Origin: Agrobacterium tumefaciens | Lineage (GTDB): Bacteria; Pseudomonadota; Alphaproteobacteria; Rhizobiales; Rhizobiaceae | Length of the DNA: 64,000 nucleotides | Reading direction: 5' to 3' | Assembly (NCBI GenBank): GCA_017744915.1 | Contig: JAGIAH010000004.1 | Coordinates: forward strand, 62,001-126,000 | In this document: positions 58,176 through 64,000 of the stretch, piece by piece | Position numbering within the stretch: position 1 is the stretch's first letter | Layout: each line of letters starts with the position of its first letter | Program-made: the position numbers and the translations under genes | Notes under the pieces: generated by a model | Seen by the model: only the letters and a program-made list of their open reading frames with translations | Database searches by the model: none | What the model was told of the DNA's origin: nothing

Positions 58176-59435
58176 TCAGTAGATCGTGAGCGCAGGAATG
58201 AAGCTGACCGCGATGAGAAGCAGCATCGCCATGGTGAAGAACGGCCACAATTCCCTCGTCGTCGCGCCGAGCGGTGCTCTGGCAATGGAGGACGAGATGA
58301 ACAGCGTTGTGCCGATCGGCGGAGTGTAGAGCCCGATACCCAGATTGATCACCATCATCATGCCGAGCTGTACCCGGTCGAGCCCTATCATATCGGCCAG
58401 TGGCACGAAGATCGGTCCGAGCAGCAGGATCGAAGGCGGCAGATCGAGCGGCATGCCGATGATCAGCATCAGGATGTTCATCATGAGAATGATCAGGATC
58501 GGGTTCGAAATATTCTCTGCCACCCAGGTGGCGAAATGCTGGGGTGCCTGATCGAAGGTGAGGACCCAGCCCACCGCGGCACTTCCCATGATGACCAGCA
58601 TGACGACGCCGGTTGCCGAGCCTGCCTCGACGAAATTGTCGCAGAAACGCTTCCACGTCAGATCGCGATAAAAGAAGATGCTGAGCACGAGCGAATAGAC
58701 GACAGAAAGAACGGCGACTTCCGTTGGCGTTGCAAAGCCGAAACGCAGGCCGAGGATGATCAGGATCGGCAAAAGGATTGCCGGCAGGCTGCGGAACGCA
58801 AGGAGCGCCAGATCGCGCTTGCGGATACTTTCGTCACGCACCGCATAGCCCCGCCGCACAGCGATGGCCCAGCAGACGAAGATGAAGCCCACCGCCATGA
58901 GCAGGCCCGGCAGAATGCCGGCGATGAACAGGTTGGCGATGCTGACGCCGCTGACCAATGAATAGAGGATCATCGGGATCGACGGCGGAATGAGCACATC
59001 GATGACCGCGGAGGTGGCGTTGTTCGCCGCACAGAGAGGCGCGGGGTAACCCTGACGTTTCTGCCATGGAATAAGCACCGAACCGAGCGCACTGGCATTG
59101 GCGACCGCCGAGCCAGAAACGCCGCCGAACACAACCGAAGAAATGACTGTCGTGGAAAGCGGGCCGCCGCGCCAGCGCTGCATGGCCTTGGAAGCGAGTT
59201 CCAGAAGCTGGTTTCCGAGTTTGCCGCCGAGCATCAGCGTGCCCGCGAGCATGAAGAATGGCAGCGCCAGCATGGGGAAGGATTGGGTCTGGTCGTAAAC
59301 CTGCTGCGCCACGATCGAAAGCGGCACATAACCGTTCCACAGCACGGCGACACCCGCAGAGATGATCAGGGCGTAGCCGACCGGAACCGCAATCATCATG
59401 AGAATACAAAATGCAATGATCATCACGATGGTCAT
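58176..59435 (-). CDS. TRAP transporter large membrane subunit (DctM type)
   Basis: The 419-residue protein has about 12 hydrophobic helices and the DctM pattern: a start like MTIVMIIAFCILMMIAVPVG, internal GGVSGSAVANASALGSVLI and a C-terminal GLYTPPIGTTLF. It is the Na+-coupled transport subunit. It is the last gene of the minus-strand operon and overlaps the small subunit by four bases. Confidence 0.95.
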   Translation of the reverse strand: MTIVMIIAFCILMMIAVPVGYALIISAGVAVLWNGYVPLSIVAQQVYDQTQSFPMLALPFFMLAGTLMLGGKLGNQLLELASKAMQRWRGGPLSTTVISSVVFGGVSGSAVANASALGSVLIPWQKRQGYPAPLCAANNATSAVIDVLIPPSIPMILYSLVSGVSIANLFIAGILPGLLMAVGFIFVCWAIAVRRGYAVRDESIRKRDLALLAFRSLPAILLPILIILGLRFGFATPTEVAVLSVVYSLVLSIFFYRDLTWKRFCDNFVEAGSATGVVMLVIMGSAAVGWVLTFDQAPQHFATWVAENISNPILIILMMNILMLIIGMPLDLPPSILLLGPIFVPLADMIGLDRVQLGMMMVINLGIGLYTPPIGTTLFISSSIARAPLGATTRELWPFFTMAMLLLIAVSFIPALTIY

Positions 59436-59965
59436 AGCGGCATCTCCTCGGTTGCGCCGTGCGGGCGGGCATGCCAGCCGCCGGAGAGAATGCGCAGGCT
59501 GGCCGTTGCGGTGGTGACCGAAACCAGTGCCGCGCCGAAGGCGATGGAATAATATCCGATGCTGTTGGGCAGTTGCAGGACGGGGCTGATTTCCGCGCCT
59601 GCGATCTCGGCAACGACAAGCGCCTGCTGCGCGAGAATGATGAAGCTTGCGACAGTGACGAGATTGGCGAACAGCAGAACGCCCACCTTGCCGCGTTCGT
59701 CGAACTTGTCATAGATCCATTCCACCGCCATATGCGCGCCGCTCTGCGCGGCAAGGGTAATGCCGGCGACGATGAACCATGGAAACAGCATGGTCGGCAG
59801 CTCTTCCGCAAAATCCAGACCGCCGGATGTCGATAGATAGCGGACGATGACGTTTGCGGTCATGATGACCGTGAGCAGAATGCCGGATGCCACGATGATG
59901 ATGCGGCAGAGGATGGCGATGAAACTGTCAACGCGATTGGCGGCGGACAAGGCTCCTTCGAGCAT
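59432..59965 (-). CDS. TRAP transporter small membrane subunit (DctQ type)
   Basis: The 177-residue protein has four hydrophobic helices and the DctQ pattern (ANVIVRYL, EELPTMLFPWFIVAG and AAQSGAHMAVEWI). It supports the large subunit. I chose ATG 59963-59965; the frame extends upstream to 60316, but that part is a shadow of the binding protein gene. Confidence 0.92.
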   Translation of the reverse strand: MLEGALSAANRVDSFIAILCRIIIVASGILLTVIMTANVIVRYLSTSGGLDFAEELPTMLFPWFIVAGITLAAQSGAHMAVEWIYDKFDERGKVGVLLFANLVTVASFIILAQQALVVAEIAGAEISPVLQLPNSIGYYSIAFGAALVSVTTATASLRILSGGWHARPHGATEEMPL

Positions 59966-60086
59966 TGGCGCATCTCCTGAAAACTGAAACCGTATGAATG
60001 TCGGCGTGAGCTTAGGCTCCCGCCGATCCTGTCGGTGGACATGAAGGCGAGGCCGGGCGGCATGAGCCGGCCCGGCATCCTGATCG

Positions 60087-61094
60087 TCAGCCCTTGGCGG
60101 CCTTTTCCAGCTCAGCGACGAAATCGCCGAAGGGCTTCTGCTTCCATGTCTCCAGAACCTGCGCGGTGGCCTTCGCGAAAGCGGCGTGGTCGATGTCTTC
60201 CACCACCTCGATAGCGGCATTGGCCTTGAAGGCGGCCAGCGATGCGCTTGCCTTTTCAGCCGAAAGTTTGCGTTGAAGCACCCCGGCCTCCTTCGCAGCC
60301 GCCTTGACCGCCTCAAAATCCTTGCCCAGCCGCCCCTCGGCGAATTTGGACATCAGGAATGGCGTGGATTCCCATTTATGAGCGGTGAGGCTGATATGTT
60401 TGTTTACCTCGTAAAGCTTGGAGCTTTCGATGTTGACCAGAGGGTTTTCCTGCCCGTCCACAACGCCCTGCTGAAGCGCGATGTAAAGTTCGCCAAAGGC
60501 GATCTGAACCGTCGCCGCATCCAGCGCCTTGAAAATATCCATCGTCATCGGGTCGGCGGGCGTGCGGATTTTCAGGCCTGCGACATCCTGCGGCCTGGTG
60601 ATGGCGTGTTTGGAATTGGAAACATGGCGGATGCCGTTATCCCACCAGTCAAGCGGCACGATGCCGACCTTCTGAAAACGTGTGTCGAGCGACGCGCCGA
60701 CATCGCCCTCAAGCACCTTGATCGCCTGATCGGCATTGCTGAACAGGAAGGGCAGGCCGAGCGCCGCGAGTTCTGGAACAACGCTCGAAACCGGACCCTG
60801 GCTATTGGCGGTGAAATCCAGTGCCCCGGTGCGCAGGCTGGTCAGCATGGCGGCGTCGCTGCCAAGCGTTTCCGAACCGGCGACGTTGATCGCCACACGG
60901 CCTTCGGTTTTCTCTCCGACGAGTTCCGCGAATTTCGCGGCTGCGAGCGTGCGCGGATTGCCCGGTGCCGCACCATGACCGAGCGTCAGCGTTGTGGCGG
61001 CCTGGGCATTGCGGGCCGCCGTCAGAACGGCCGGTGCCGCCAGTGCCAGTCCGGTACCGGTCAGGAACATGCGCCTGTTGATGGAAATACTCAT
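60087..61094 (-). CDS. TRAP transporter substrate-binding protein (DctP type)
   Basis: The 335-residue protein has a signal peptide with adjacent arginines (INRRMFLTGTGLALAAPAV), so Tat export is possible. The mature part has the DctP pattern: GHGAAPGNPRTLAAAKFAEL, the conserved Arg-containing GLKIRTPADPM that binds carboxylate, and VVDGQENPLVNI. The ligand is likely a carboxylate or sugar acid. It starts 120 bases after the transketolase genes on the same strand. Confidence 0.93.
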   Translation of the reverse strand: MSISINRRMFLTGTGLALAAPAVLTAARNAQAATTLTLGHGAAPGNPRTLAAAKFAELVGEKTEGRVAINVAGSETLGSDAAMLTSLRTGALDFTANSQGPVSSVVPELAALGLPFLFSNADQAIKVLEGDVGASLDTRFQKVGIVPLDWWDNGIRHVSNSKHAITRPQDVAGLKIRTPADPMTMDIFKALDAATVQIAFGELYIALQQGVVDGQENPLVNIESSKLYEVNKHISLTAHKWESTPFLMSKFAEGRLGKDFEAVKAAAKEAGVLQRKLSAEKASASLAAFKANAAIEVVEDIDHAAFAKATAQVLETWKQKPFGDFVAELEKAAKG

Positions 61095-61214
61095 TTTTTC
61101 CTCCCTGGATTTAAATACCCTCAGCGTTGTCCGATCATGCGGATAACGCGCTCCACTCCCTTAAAACCGCCGGCTCCCCCCGGCTGATTCTGCGCGATGT
61201 CTTCACCTCAGCCT

Positions 61215-62246
61215 TTAGACCGAACCGCGCGGTACTTCAAAACCTTCATTCTCCAGCCAGCCTCTAACGCGCGCCACGATCGTTGCCGTCGAGATGCCGT
61301 AGCGGTCGTGCAGGGTGGGCAGCGCACCCGCACCCAGAAAGGCATCGGGCAGGGCGATATGCTGCAGTCGCGGCGCCCGGCCGCTTTTCATCAACGCCAT
61401 TGCCACGGCCTCTCCGAGACCACCTATTTCGCTATGGTTTTCCGCCACGATGACAAGACGATCGGCCCTGTCCACCTCCGCGAAGATCGAGGCGGTATCG
61501 AGCGGTTTGATGGTGGGGGAATGTAGAACGGCGCAGCCGACGCCCTCCTTCTCAAGCAGGGCAGCCGCTTCGAGAACCCGCATCGTCAATATGCCGGATG
61601 ATATGAAAAGGACCTGCGCACCATCACGAATGAGTTTGGCCTTACCGAGTTCGAACCTGTAGCCATATTCTTCGAGTACCACCGGCACCTGGCCGCGCAA
61701 CAGGCGCATATAGACCGGGCCGTTGTAAGCCGTAATCGCCGGCACCGCGCCTTCTATATCGGTCGCATCGCATGGGTCGATGATCGTCATGTTCGGCAGC
61801 GCGCGAAAGATCGCCAGATCGTCGGTCGCCTGATGACTGGGGCCATAACCCGTTGTCAGGCCGGGCAGGGCGCAGACGATCTTCACCGGCAGGTTTTCTT
61901 CGGCAATCGCCATCGCGATGAAATCATAGGCGCGGCGGGCGGCGAAGACCGCATAGGTGGTCGCGAAGGGCACGAAGCCCTCGCGCGCCAGACCGGCGGC
62001 AGTGCTCATCAGCAGCTGCTCGGCCATGCCCATCTGATAAAAGCGCTCGGGAAAGGCTTTGGCGAAAATATGCAGGTCGGTATATTTGCCGAGATCGGCG
62101 GTAAGGCCGACAATATCCTCGCGTTCTTTCGCCAGCTGAACAAGAGCATGACCGAAGGGCGCAGGGCGTGTCGGCTGACCTTCGGCGGCAATGGAGGCGA
62201 TCATCGCCGATGTGGTGAGGCGCTTCTGCGGGGCTGCTGCACTCAT
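61215..62246 (-). CDS. Transketolase-like protein, C-terminal subunit
   Basis: The 343-residue protein matches the pyrimidine and C-terminal domains of transketolase: the acidic ThDP-activating Glu region GMAEQLLMSTAAG, TGYGPSHQATDDLAIFR, and a C-terminal domain starting near residue 210. It should pair with the neighbouring N-terminal subunit to make one active enzyme. It overlaps that gene by four bases. Confidence 0.93.
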   Translation of the reverse strand: MSAAAPQKRLTTSAMIASIAAEGQPTRPAPFGHALVQLAKEREDIVGLTADLGKYTDLHIFAKAFPERFYQMGMAEQLLMSTAAGLAREGFVPFATTYAVFAARRAYDFIAMAIAEENLPVKIVCALPGLTTGYGPSHQATDDLAIFRALPNMTIIDPCDATDIEGAVPAITAYNGPVYMRLLRGQVPVVLEEYGYRFELGKAKLIRDGAQVLFISSGILTMRVLEAAALLEKEGVGCAVLHSPTIKPLDTASIFAEVDRADRLVIVAENHSEIGGLGEAVAMALMKSGRAPRLQHIALPDAFLGAGALPTLHDRYGISTATIVARVRGWLENEGFEVPRGSV

Positions 62247-63115
62247 GACGGCCGTCCTTCCTCAAGGGCGTCGAGCGCCAGTTTCCATTCATGCGCCTCC
62301 ACGCGAATGAAATGGGTGATTTCTCGGTTTTCGAGAAAGGGCACGCCACGGCCCATTCGGGTATCGAAGATGATGGCGCGCGGCCTGTCATCGACAAGTG
62401 ACATGGCGATGTCGAAAGCCTCACGAACTTTGTCGATATCATTGCCGTTGACGCGTTGCACATGCCAGCCGAAGGCCGCGAATTTGCCGTCGACGGGTTC
62501 GGAGGACAGCATTTCGCGGGAAGGGCCATCCGCCTGCTGATTGTTGAAATCCACGAGATTGATGAGATTGCCGAGCCTGTGATGGGATGCGCCCATGGCG
62601 GCCTCCCAGGTCGAGCCTTCCCCCAACTCGCCATCCGACATCAGGTTTATGATGAACCGGTCTGAACTCTTGCGTTTGAGGCCGAGAGCCATGCCAACGG
62701 CAATGCCAAGCCCGTGGCCGAGCGAGCCGCCGGTGATTTCCATGCCCGGCGTATAGGAGGCCATGCCGGACATGGGCAGGCGCGAGCCGTCGCAGCCATA
62801 GGTCTCCAGCTCGTCTTCCGGGATGACGCCCGCCTCGATGAGTGCTGCGTAAAGTGCAATCGCATAATGGCCGATGGAGAGCAGAAACCGGTCGCGGCCC
62901 TCCCAGTGCGGATCGTCCGCCCGGTAGCGCATGGTGTGAAACCACGCCACGGCCAGAACATCGGCAATACCGAGCGCCTGACCGACATAACCCTGTCCCT
63001 GAACTTCACCCATCAACAGGGCGTTGCGCCGGATGCGCCAGGCGCGTTCCGCCAGCGATACATTCGCCAGTGCCGCTTCCCTCGTTGCATCGGTATCCGA
63101 ATACGCCTGAGCCAT
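62243..63115 (-). CDS. Transketolase-like protein, N-terminal subunit
   Basis: The 290-residue protein is the ThDP-diphosphate-binding half of transketolase: GSLGHGLGIAVGMALGLK, and the ThDP motif region MSDGELGEGSTWEA...VDFNNQQ. The first residue of the usual GDG is Ser (SDG). I chose ATG 63113-63115; the longer frame runs into the SDR gene. The gene is 58 bases downstream of the SDR gene. Confidence 0.92.
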   Translation of the reverse strand: MAQAYSDTDATREAALANVSLAERAWRIRRNALLMGEVQGQGYVGQALGIADVLAVAWFHTMRYRADDPHWEGRDRFLLSIGHYAIALYAALIEAGVIPEDELETYGCDGSRLPMSGMASYTPGMEITGGSLGHGLGIAVGMALGLKRKSSDRFIINLMSDGELGEGSTWEAAMGASHHRLGNLINLVDFNNQQADGPSREMLSSEPVDGKFAAFGWHVQRVNGNDIDKVREAFDIAMSLVDDRPRAIIFDTRMGRGVPFLENREITHFIRVEAHEWKLALDALEEGRPS

Positions 63116-63173
63116 GGTTTCCTCCTCCCGGTCAGAAAATCGAAGCCGGCTTCCCGGCTTCGAAAGATGGTTT

Positions 63174-63935
63174 TCAGTGAATGAGCATTCCGCCATTCAC
63201 ATCGACAACCGCACCGGTGACGTAGGAGGAGAGATCCGAGGCGAGGAAAAGATAGATATTGGCCACATCGACGGCGTCGCCGAGACGGTTGAGCGGAATG
63301 CCCTTGAGAATGTCGCGGCGCATGTCGTCGGTGAGCTTGCCGCCGGTAATGTCTGTCTGGATCAGGCCGGGGGTAACGGAGTTGACACGAATGCCGTCGG
63401 GGCCGAATTCACGCGCCATGGCCTTTGCGAGACCGAGAACACCTGCCTTGGCCGCCGAATAATGCGGCCCGCCGAAAATGCCGCCGCCGCGCTGCGCGGA
63501 AACCGACGACATGCAGGCAATCGAACCGCCACCGTTATCGCGCATATTGGGGATGAAGGCCTGGCTGAAATTCAGCACACCGGTCATGTTAACGTCGACG
63601 ATGCGCTGCCAGTCCGTGGCGGTAATGTCGAGCGTCTTGACCGGCTGAGTGATGCCGGCATTGTTGATGAGGATATCGATCTTGCCGAAAGCGGCGATGA
63701 CTTTTTGCGCGGCCGCCTCGCAGGAGGCGCGATCTGCGACATTGCCGCCGACGCCGAGATGCTCGCCACCAGCCACTTTTTCAAGCGAGGCCGCAGCTTC
63801 GATGCTGCCGGCTTCGTCGAGATCCACGATGGCGACGCGGGCGCCGTGGCGGGCGAAAAGTTCCGCCGTGGCGCGGCCGATGCCGCGTTTGCTGGCGGCG
63901 CCTGAAATAACCGCGGTCTTTCCATTCAACAACAT
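63174..63935 (-). CDS. Short-chain dehydrogenase/reductase (SDR)
   Basis: The 253-residue classical SDR has the cofactor motif near GAASKRGIGRA, the NNAG motif, catalytic Ser (MSSVSAQRGG) and Tyr/Lys (HYSAAKAG), and the C-terminal GAVVDVNGG. Asp after the second strand (AIVDLDEA) suggests NAD preference. ATG 63933-63935 is preceded by GGGAGGA. It leads the visible part of an operon with the transketolase pair and TRAP transporter. The next gene upstream is cut by the window end. Confidence 0.93.
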   Translation of the reverse strand: MLLNGKTAVISGAASKRGIGRATAELFARHGARVAIVDLDEAGSIEAAASLEKVAGGEHLGVGGNVADRASCEAAAQKVIAAFGKIDILINNAGITQPVKTLDITATDWQRIVDVNMTGVLNFSQAFIPNMRDNGGGSIACMSSVSAQRGGGIFGGPHYSAAKAGVLGLAKAMAREFGPDGIRVNSVTPGLIQTDITGGKLTDDMRRDILKGIPLNRLGDAVDVANIYLFLASDLSSYVTGAVVDVNGGMLIH

Positions 63936-64000
63936 GAGCAATCCTCCCAAGCCAGGCGGGCCGGCTTCATACGCTTGACGGCGGTGCTCCCGACCTGCCG

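Follow-up and report, generated by a model that had tools for sequence, protein, structure and literature searches.

A LysR-linked split transketolase operon of Agrobacterium tumefaciens and its putative role in sugar acid catabolism

The operon and its divergent partner

The stretch of DNA considered here, referred to as the window, comprises 64,000 nucleotides of Agrobacterium tumefaciens (assembly GCA_017744915.1, contig JAGIAH010000004.1, positions 62,001 to 126,000), and close to its end lies an operon encoding a short-chain dehydrogenase/reductase (SDR), the two halves of a split transketolase (TK) and a tripartite ATP-independent periplasmic (TRAP) transporter. A preliminary description, made from the sequence alone, had given the gene order SDR, TK-N, TK-C and TRAP P-Q-M on a single strand between 58176 and 63935, and all six genes are indeed found there, each frame being open and matching its family (Table 1; the starts of TK-N, DctQ and SDR were picked by reading). 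The transporter set is complete, with DctP, DctQ and DctM; TK-N overlaps TK-C, and DctQ overlaps DctM, by 4 bases each, and the spacing suggests that the six genes are co-transcribed. The whole arrangement is present in the sister genome G024, with proteins 93.4 to 99.5% identical, and the dN/dS values against this genome, ranging from 0.008 to 0.077 for the six operon genes and from 0.008 to 0.118 once the divergent operon with its five genes is added, denote purifying selection.

The operon was previously taken to be cut at the window end, which turned out to be wrong: the start of SDR at 63935 is the operon start, and a divergently oriented LysR gene begins 170 bases on. When the same contig is read past position 64000, giving a locus of approximately 19 kb designated L004, this LysR gene is seen to head a second operon that continues with a TIM barrel protein, DhaK, DhaL and DerI. 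The statement that no kinase or isomerase is in view is therefore correct for the window but not for the contig beyond it, where the kinase DhaKL and isomerases are present. Of the gene types for which upstream reading had been proposed, namely a kinase, an aldolase or a regulator, a regulator and a kinase were found, and these genes hint at a tetrulose-phosphate route without naming the substrate; the Dak1 and Dak2 family matches do not separate a dihydroxyacetone (DHA) kinase from an erythrulose kinase. Near the LysR end of the intergenic region, a TGAA-N5-TTCA motif with conserved flanking bases occurs in all seven SDR-LysR intergenic regions that were aligned, drawn from both kinds of locus, which suggests that one regulator and one class of inducer may be shared across the loci.

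Between SDR and TK-N lies a 10-bp hairpin, which was found in genomes G000 and G024 and not in the folded stretches of seven other loci. The locus shows 2 promoter-like sites where shuffled sequences average 3.5, and 14 terminator-like sites where they average 10.4 (sd 3.3); Rfam gave no match across L004 1500-12800.

Table 1. Features of the operon (window coordinates) and of the divergent operon (coordinates in L004)
Feature	Position	Strand	Remarks
SDR oxidoreductase	63174..63935	-	First gene of the operon; adh_short_C2 228.8 bits (scored on the ORF from an upstream TTG)
Hairpin, 10 bp, with TTTT tail, between SDR and TK-N	63140..63163	-	Possible terminator or attenuator
TK-N half (Transketolase_N, ThDP-binding)	62243..63115	-	PF00456 132.4 bits (scored on a longer ORF)
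TK-C half (Transket_pyr and Transketolase_C)	61215..62246	-	PF02779 114.6 bits, PF02780 79.2 bits
DctP, TRAP solute-binding protein	60087..61094	-	PF03480 241 bits
DctQ, TRAP small permease	59432..59965	-	PF04290 76.6 bits (on a longer reading)
DctM, TRAP large permease	58176..59435	-	TIGR00786 468.9 bits, cut-off 268.45
SDR/LysR divergent intergenic region	63936..64000 (window part)		169 bp in all, the rest beyond the window
LysR	L004 8106-8993	+	First gene of the divergent operon
TIM barrel, AP_endonuc_2	L004 9144-10019	+	
DhaK	L004 10076-11068	+	Dak1 372.7 bits
DhaL	L004 11080-11724	+	Dak2 173.6 bits
DerI, RpiB-type	L004 11783-12220	+	D-erythrulose-4-phosphate isomerase, NCBIfam NF051858 248.1, cut-off 240

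Past DerI, on the opposite strand (L004 12391-18979, read by eye), there are amino acid-type ABC genes, a D-2-hydroxyacid dehydrogenase and MalK-type ABC genes.

Active site of the split transketolase

In this split TK, the PP domain on the one side and the Pyr and C domains on the other are encoded by two adjacent genes. The same two-chain division is found in the split TK of Carboxydothermus hydrogenoformans (PDB 6yaj/6yak), which is the best PDB match of both halves (187 and 226 bits) and which was assayed with hydroxypyruvate and aldehydes (PMC7661550). The C. hydrogenoformans enzyme differs, however, in its active site, where alignments place His at the positions of TktA H26 and H100, and Ser at that of S385. 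To follow such positions through the family, TK-N was read in 93 loci (65 to 96% identity) and TK-C residues were counted in 92; the counts, made first on length-filtered rows (the window and, in addition, 71 homologues of TK-N and 74 of TK-C), were then repeated without the length filter (93 and 92 loci). Because many of these loci are closely related, the counts do not represent independent events. In the plasmid search (704 records), 515 relatives below 60% were left out, so the Tyr and Ser counts cover the nearer relatives.

Tyr42 of TK-N, at the TktA H26 position, and Ser115, at the H100 position (numbered without the first Met), are Tyr and Ser in 93 of 93 loci. In TK-C, Tyr55, at the S385 position, is Tyr in 92 of 92; Ala126, at the H461 position, is Ala in 91 and Gly in the other; and a Tyr stands at or beside the Asp469 position in all 92, adjoining a one-residue deletion. 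The R358 position, around which the local alignment is uncertain, is variable (V in 33, R in 24, K in 9, others in 9; n = 75). Conserved, on the other hand, are the catalytic Glu E76 (TktA E411; 92/92) and the ligands of Mg and thiamine diphosphate (ThDP), D160 and N190 (93/93), the TktA residues with kept equivalents being E411, D155, N185, H66, H261, H473 and R520. The pair of His residues corresponding to H26 and H100, which in our own judgement is taken as defining for split TKs, is not found here; by fold and by its ThDP residues the protein remains split-TK-like, and ketol transfer is predicted.

Fourteen split TKs from outside the family, taken from 61 related genomes, served as control (N half 35 to 40% and C half 32 to 36% identical, several being nearly identical mutually), no split TK outside the family that was met in these genomes exceeding 40% identity. 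His26 and His100 are kept in 14 of the 14, Ser385 in 13 and Arg358 in 11. Thus, the changes His26Tyr, His100Ser and Ser385Tyr mark this TK family; the absence of His461 and Asp469 is no such mark, being common among the controls. Eleven of the controls (among L011-L024) carry Leu at the Asp469 position and Ser at that of His461.

In TktA, His100 and Ser385 contact donor and phosphate, and the phosphate-contact residues include others besides H461. According to PMC3657141, H461 is normally tied to phosphate binding; the variants H461S and R520V of E. coli TK are more active on both glycolaldehyde and propionaldehyde, and enantioselectivity is reversed in D469Y and in H26Y. The changed site of the present enzyme fits a non-phosphorylated donor, and perhaps a different stereochemistry. 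AptA and AptB, by comparison, form a split apulose-4-phosphate TK encoded in a catabolic operon and acting on a phosphorylated ketose; set beside it by description rather than by sequence, the present enzyme is likewise split, with the S385 and H461 equivalents replaced, the R358 position variable and R520 kept. The earlier analogy to apulose phosphate is hence unsupported, and an apulose-4-phosphate reading was set aside as less likely, because several TktA phosphate-contact residues are replaced.

There are precedents for transketolases with non-phosphorylated substrates. In plants, a TK has been proposed to cleave 5-keto-gluconate, and activity on this compound is reported for a mutant of the E. 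coli enzyme (PMC11066805), with further precedent in PMC7970118. In the sulfo-TK pathway, SqwGH is a transketolase acting on a non-phosphorylated sugar derivative, and an RpiB-family isomerase (PF02502) belongs to the pathway (PMC9594981). Judged by description and not by sequence, the RpiB-family isomerase is common to both systems, whereas L004 holds SDR, DhaKL and a DerI-type RpiB, and no other sulfoglycolysis gene is annotated in it. A sulfosugar, the other analogy drawn in the preliminary description, was rejected as substrate, given that no sulfoglycolytic gene of the type reported in PMC9594981 is among the annotated genes of the 19-kb locus, the genome elsewhere not having been searched.

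Conserved core, neighbours and substrate clues

A collection with one genome per species contained at least 599 stretches with two peptide patterns of the TK-N family, at least 574 of which encode a relative (tblastn, E 1e-3), and the best 80 loci were kept. Since only 66 of these extend for at least 4 kb on both sides, some ending at contig ends, the neighbour counts are lower bounds. TK-C adjoins TK-N on the same strand in 79 of the 80 loci; an SDR lies within 6 kb on the TK strand in 72, directly adjacent in 62, and a LysR-type match is found nearby in 66. Judged from this conservation, SDR-TKN-TKC is a widespread core of presumably catabolic function. The transporters near it vary (TRAP in 54 loci, MFS in 9, an RbsB-like sugar-binding protein in 9) and appear freer than the enzymes, because the best DctP match of loci L025-L110, where found, is 30 to 75% identical, against 66 to 82% for TK-C. 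Several accessory enzymes recur as well: a HIBDH-like protein (25/80), a 2-hydroxyacid dehydrogenase (6/80) and a glycerate-2-kinase-like protein (4/80). HIBDH, TKfull, c20 and GlcrK are our own cluster names, and the threonate-dehydrogenase, fuconolactonase and glycerate-kinase models stay below their cut-offs in these clusters. No description of this cluster was found in the literature searched, most subscription papers lying outside that search.

Whether the enzyme could be a second pentose phosphate pathway transketolase of the ordinary kind, merely split in two, can be judged in part from the distribution of the TK-N family. Such a role, which would accommodate the intact ThDP residues and the ordinary full-length TK gene present near the core in 13 of the 80 loci, is extremely unlikely, considering the replaced residues of the donor and phosphate sites, the full-length TK frame that the own genome also holds (C11, 672 aa) and the patchy occurrence of the family, members of at least 69% identity being present, within the genus, in 5 of 37 genomes including the own one. 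In genomes of other families it was found in 1 of 24, and it occurs on plasmids also. One such plasmid, pGJ3-1 of the gammaproteobacterium Photobacterium sp. GJ3, carries TK-N, TK-C, TRAP, a HIBDH-like protein, a distant TIM21-like protein (37%) and SDR in a cluster (L121).

Clues to the substrate come from the proteins around the TK. The DctP model (pLDDT 92.1) lies near many TRAP solute-binding proteins (SBPs) in a PDB comparison, the top row having a Z of 42.3 and rows within 1 being tied. The 'sugar acid binding protein' DctPAm of Advenella (7bbr/7bco), 32% identical to the window DctP, superposes with a Z of 41.8 and an rmsd of 1.7 to 1.9 over 305 to 306 aligned residues; DctP thus models close to sugar-acid binders, but the ligand of DctPAm cannot be transferred to it, because other SBPs score equally (within Z 1). 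R156 and R177, which presumably bind a carboxylate, are invariant in the 38 SBPs aligned (the window and 37 of the 42 homologues found). As regards the SDR, its nearest PDB entry is 7krk (351.5 bits), followed at a distance by the next distinct PDB sequence (166.8 bits); 7krk and 7krm, presumably from Acinetobacter, are labelled 3-oxoacyl-ACP reductase, a label that may be wrong.

In the same-genus genomes G002, G025 and G022, sugar-ABC proteins come after the LysR-SDR-TK-TRAP set, as does an Amidohydro_2 protein, which scores 105.3 with the NCBIfam fuconolactonase model (below its cut-off of 400) and has a distant PDB relative, 4dlf (56.5 bits), that we take to be a lactonase. L045 and L082 have in its place a gluconolactonase-type protein of PF08450 (97.4 and 96.4 bits). 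In total, a lactonase-type protein of either of these two unrelated families stands near the core in 10 of the 80 loci, in 7 of them together with a sugar-binding protein. The proposal that the carboxylate-binding Arg of DctP indicates a sugar acid or a sulfonate-like ligand gains support in its sugar-acid part from the SBP model and from the two lactonase families, the latter in only 10 of the 80 loci, and gains none in its sulfosugar part. The accompanying idea, that a single compound is imported, oxidised or reduced and then used for ketol transfer, agrees in its oxidative form with the conserved core and the SBP model, the identity of that compound being our inference. A text search of PMC9007349 gave eight mentions of gluconate and none of transketolase, TRAP, erythrulose, tartronate or xylonate.

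A tentative pathway and its alternatives

DhaK stands near the core in 16 of the 80 loci, always alongside one of two TIM barrel families. For instance, in Tropicimonas (L104) the core lies beside a TIM barrel, a fused DhaKL, a TpiA-like and an RpiB-type protein, the last two of which share 79 and 83% identity with counterparts encoded in an operon of Shinella with erythritol-operon layout (L117, for which we assume the gene names of the erythritol type). In Sphaerotilus, the TIM barrel lies between the TRAP and TK genes, with a DhaKL-type protein annotated as DhaL upstream. The model of the TIM barrel, built for the Shinella homologue, has ketose 3-epimerases and sugar isomerases as its nearest structures (Z 23 to 25.5 among the 50 matches listed), while a PDB sequence search with the own TIM barrel gave no match at E 0.001; 15 of 19 rows were aligned for this family, L057 (wrong frame) and the redundant L061, L064 and L099 being left out. 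These genes resemble a known route in which, according to PMC10733421, L-erythrulose is converted into erythrose 4-phosphate by LerK, LerI and DerI. A DerI-type isomerase and a DhaK/DhaL kinase are common to both, here joined to SDR, split TK and TRAP, and the TIM barrel has, by comparison with the description and not the sequence of LerI, a sugar isomerase/epimerase fold. LerK itself we take to be a DhaK/DhaL-type kinase.

The TIM barrel and DhaK would also be accounted for by a polyol or ketose pathway, in which SDR would convert a polyol into a free ketose, TK would remove two carbons, and the TIM barrel would isomerise glyceraldehyde or a tetrose to DHA or erythrulose for phosphorylation by DhaKL. 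The 16 loci with both genes, the epimerase-like TIM model and the RbsB-like proteins in 9 loci speak for this route; it seems unlikely nonetheless, since acids are indicated both by the neighbouring lactonases, which come from two unrelated families, and by the resemblance of the SBP model to sugar-acid binders. DerI brings in a branched five-carbon acid of the D-apiose type, for the DerI of the window locus is 77% identical to that of the oxidative D-apiose operon of Rhizobium sp. N324 (L120, annotated with OiaX). In that case SDR and/or the HIBDH-like protein would yield 3-oxo-isoapionate or an isomer, from which TK would release hydroxypyruvate or the TIM barrel, by decarboxylation, L-erythrulose for DhaKL and DerI; OiaC is presumably a TIM barrel as well, and the loci with 2-hydroxyacid dehydrogenase and glycerate-2-kinase-like genes would suit this scheme. 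We nevertheless consider it quite unlikely, because three proteins encoded in L120, namely OiaX, a PGDH_C-type protein and a four-carbon acid sugar kinase, have no counterpart among the annotated genes of L004. A four-carbon acid, threonate or erythronate, would pass through 3-keto-tetronate to DHA and, by DhaKL, to dihydroxyacetone phosphate, TK splitting 3-keto-tetronate into glyoxylate and a two-carbon unit. Such an acid is favoured by the HIBDH-like accessory, whose best model is that of L-threonate dehydrogenase (285.1 bits, short of the cut-off at 350), and the SBP structures 4pdd, 4pdh and 4p9k are assumed to hold erythronate; yet DerI here and the TpiA-like/RpiB pair of L104 indicate a C4 ketose phosphate rather than DHA, which makes this route very unlikely.

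The reading that we tentatively put first, without giving it an even chance, is that the locus, divergently arranged and linked to LysR, serves to break down a sugar acid, which is most probably an aldonate or the corresponding lactone and is more likely to have five carbons than four or six. Acids of each of these lengths match part of the context; C5 is preferred because, among the simple C4 to C6 acids, only C5 yields both a C3 aldehyde acid by removal of the ketol and a tetrulose by decarboxylation. The TRAP transporter would import the acid, or its lactone for subsequent hydrolysis, and SDR would oxidise the secondary alcohol adjoining the terminal CH2OH, so that a keto-acid results that carries no phosphate and ends in HOCH2-CO-. 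The split TK, with its changed donor site and fewer phosphate contacts, would then take the two-carbon ketol off this free keto-acid, its presumed donor, and hand it to an aldehyde as acceptor. The aldehyde acid left behind, tartronate semialdehyde if the substrate is C5, would be taken further in some loci, perhaps by the HIBDH-like reductase, the 2-hydroxyacid dehydrogenase and the glycerate-2-kinase-like protein. Erythrulose could be formed as the product of ketol transfer to glycolaldehyde, or through a carbonyl shift and decarboxylation putatively catalysed by the TIM barrel, and would pass through erythrulose phosphate (DhaKL) to erythrose 4-phosphate (DerI).

A number of observations weigh against this pathway. 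The R520 equivalent is kept in 92 of 92 loci, and may be compatible with a phosphorylated acceptor; moreover, among the control split TKs Asp469 is lost in all 14 and His461 in 11, so these losses are not specific to the family. Neither DhaK nor the lactonases define the core, with no match in 64 and 70 of the 80 loci, respectively, some of them cut by contig ends. In L104, the RpiB-type protein narrowly misses the DerI cut-off (238.9 against 240), and the TpiA-like protein passes the plain triose-phosphate isomerase model. On plasmid a of Rhizobium tropici CIAT 899, typed as conjugative, a stretch of 18.8 kb (L118) encodes TRAP, a HIBDH-like protein, an alpha/beta hydrolase, LysR, the TIM barrel, DhaK and DhaL and contains no SDR or TK, which points to a related path; because the TIM barrel, DhaK and DhaL occur there without them, the tetrulose branch may be independent of TK. 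Finally, expression of TK-N may be uncoupled from that of SDR by the hairpin separating the two genes.

Taken further, and with more doubt than the pathway itself, the enzyme may represent a distinct ThDP family that cleaves free keto-sugar acids (4-keto-pentonates or similar) and in which two His have become Tyr and Ser, possibly with opposite stereochemistry, forming the core of an undescribed aldonate or lactone pathway spread through Proteobacteria and partly plasmid-borne. The family provides natural enzymes with Tyr at H26 and Ala at H461, sites that were engineered (H26Y, H461S) for stereochemistry or for non-phosphorylated aldehydes (PMC3657141). Should the proposed pathway hold, a transketolase-based route for free sugar acids would be added to bacterial metabolism.

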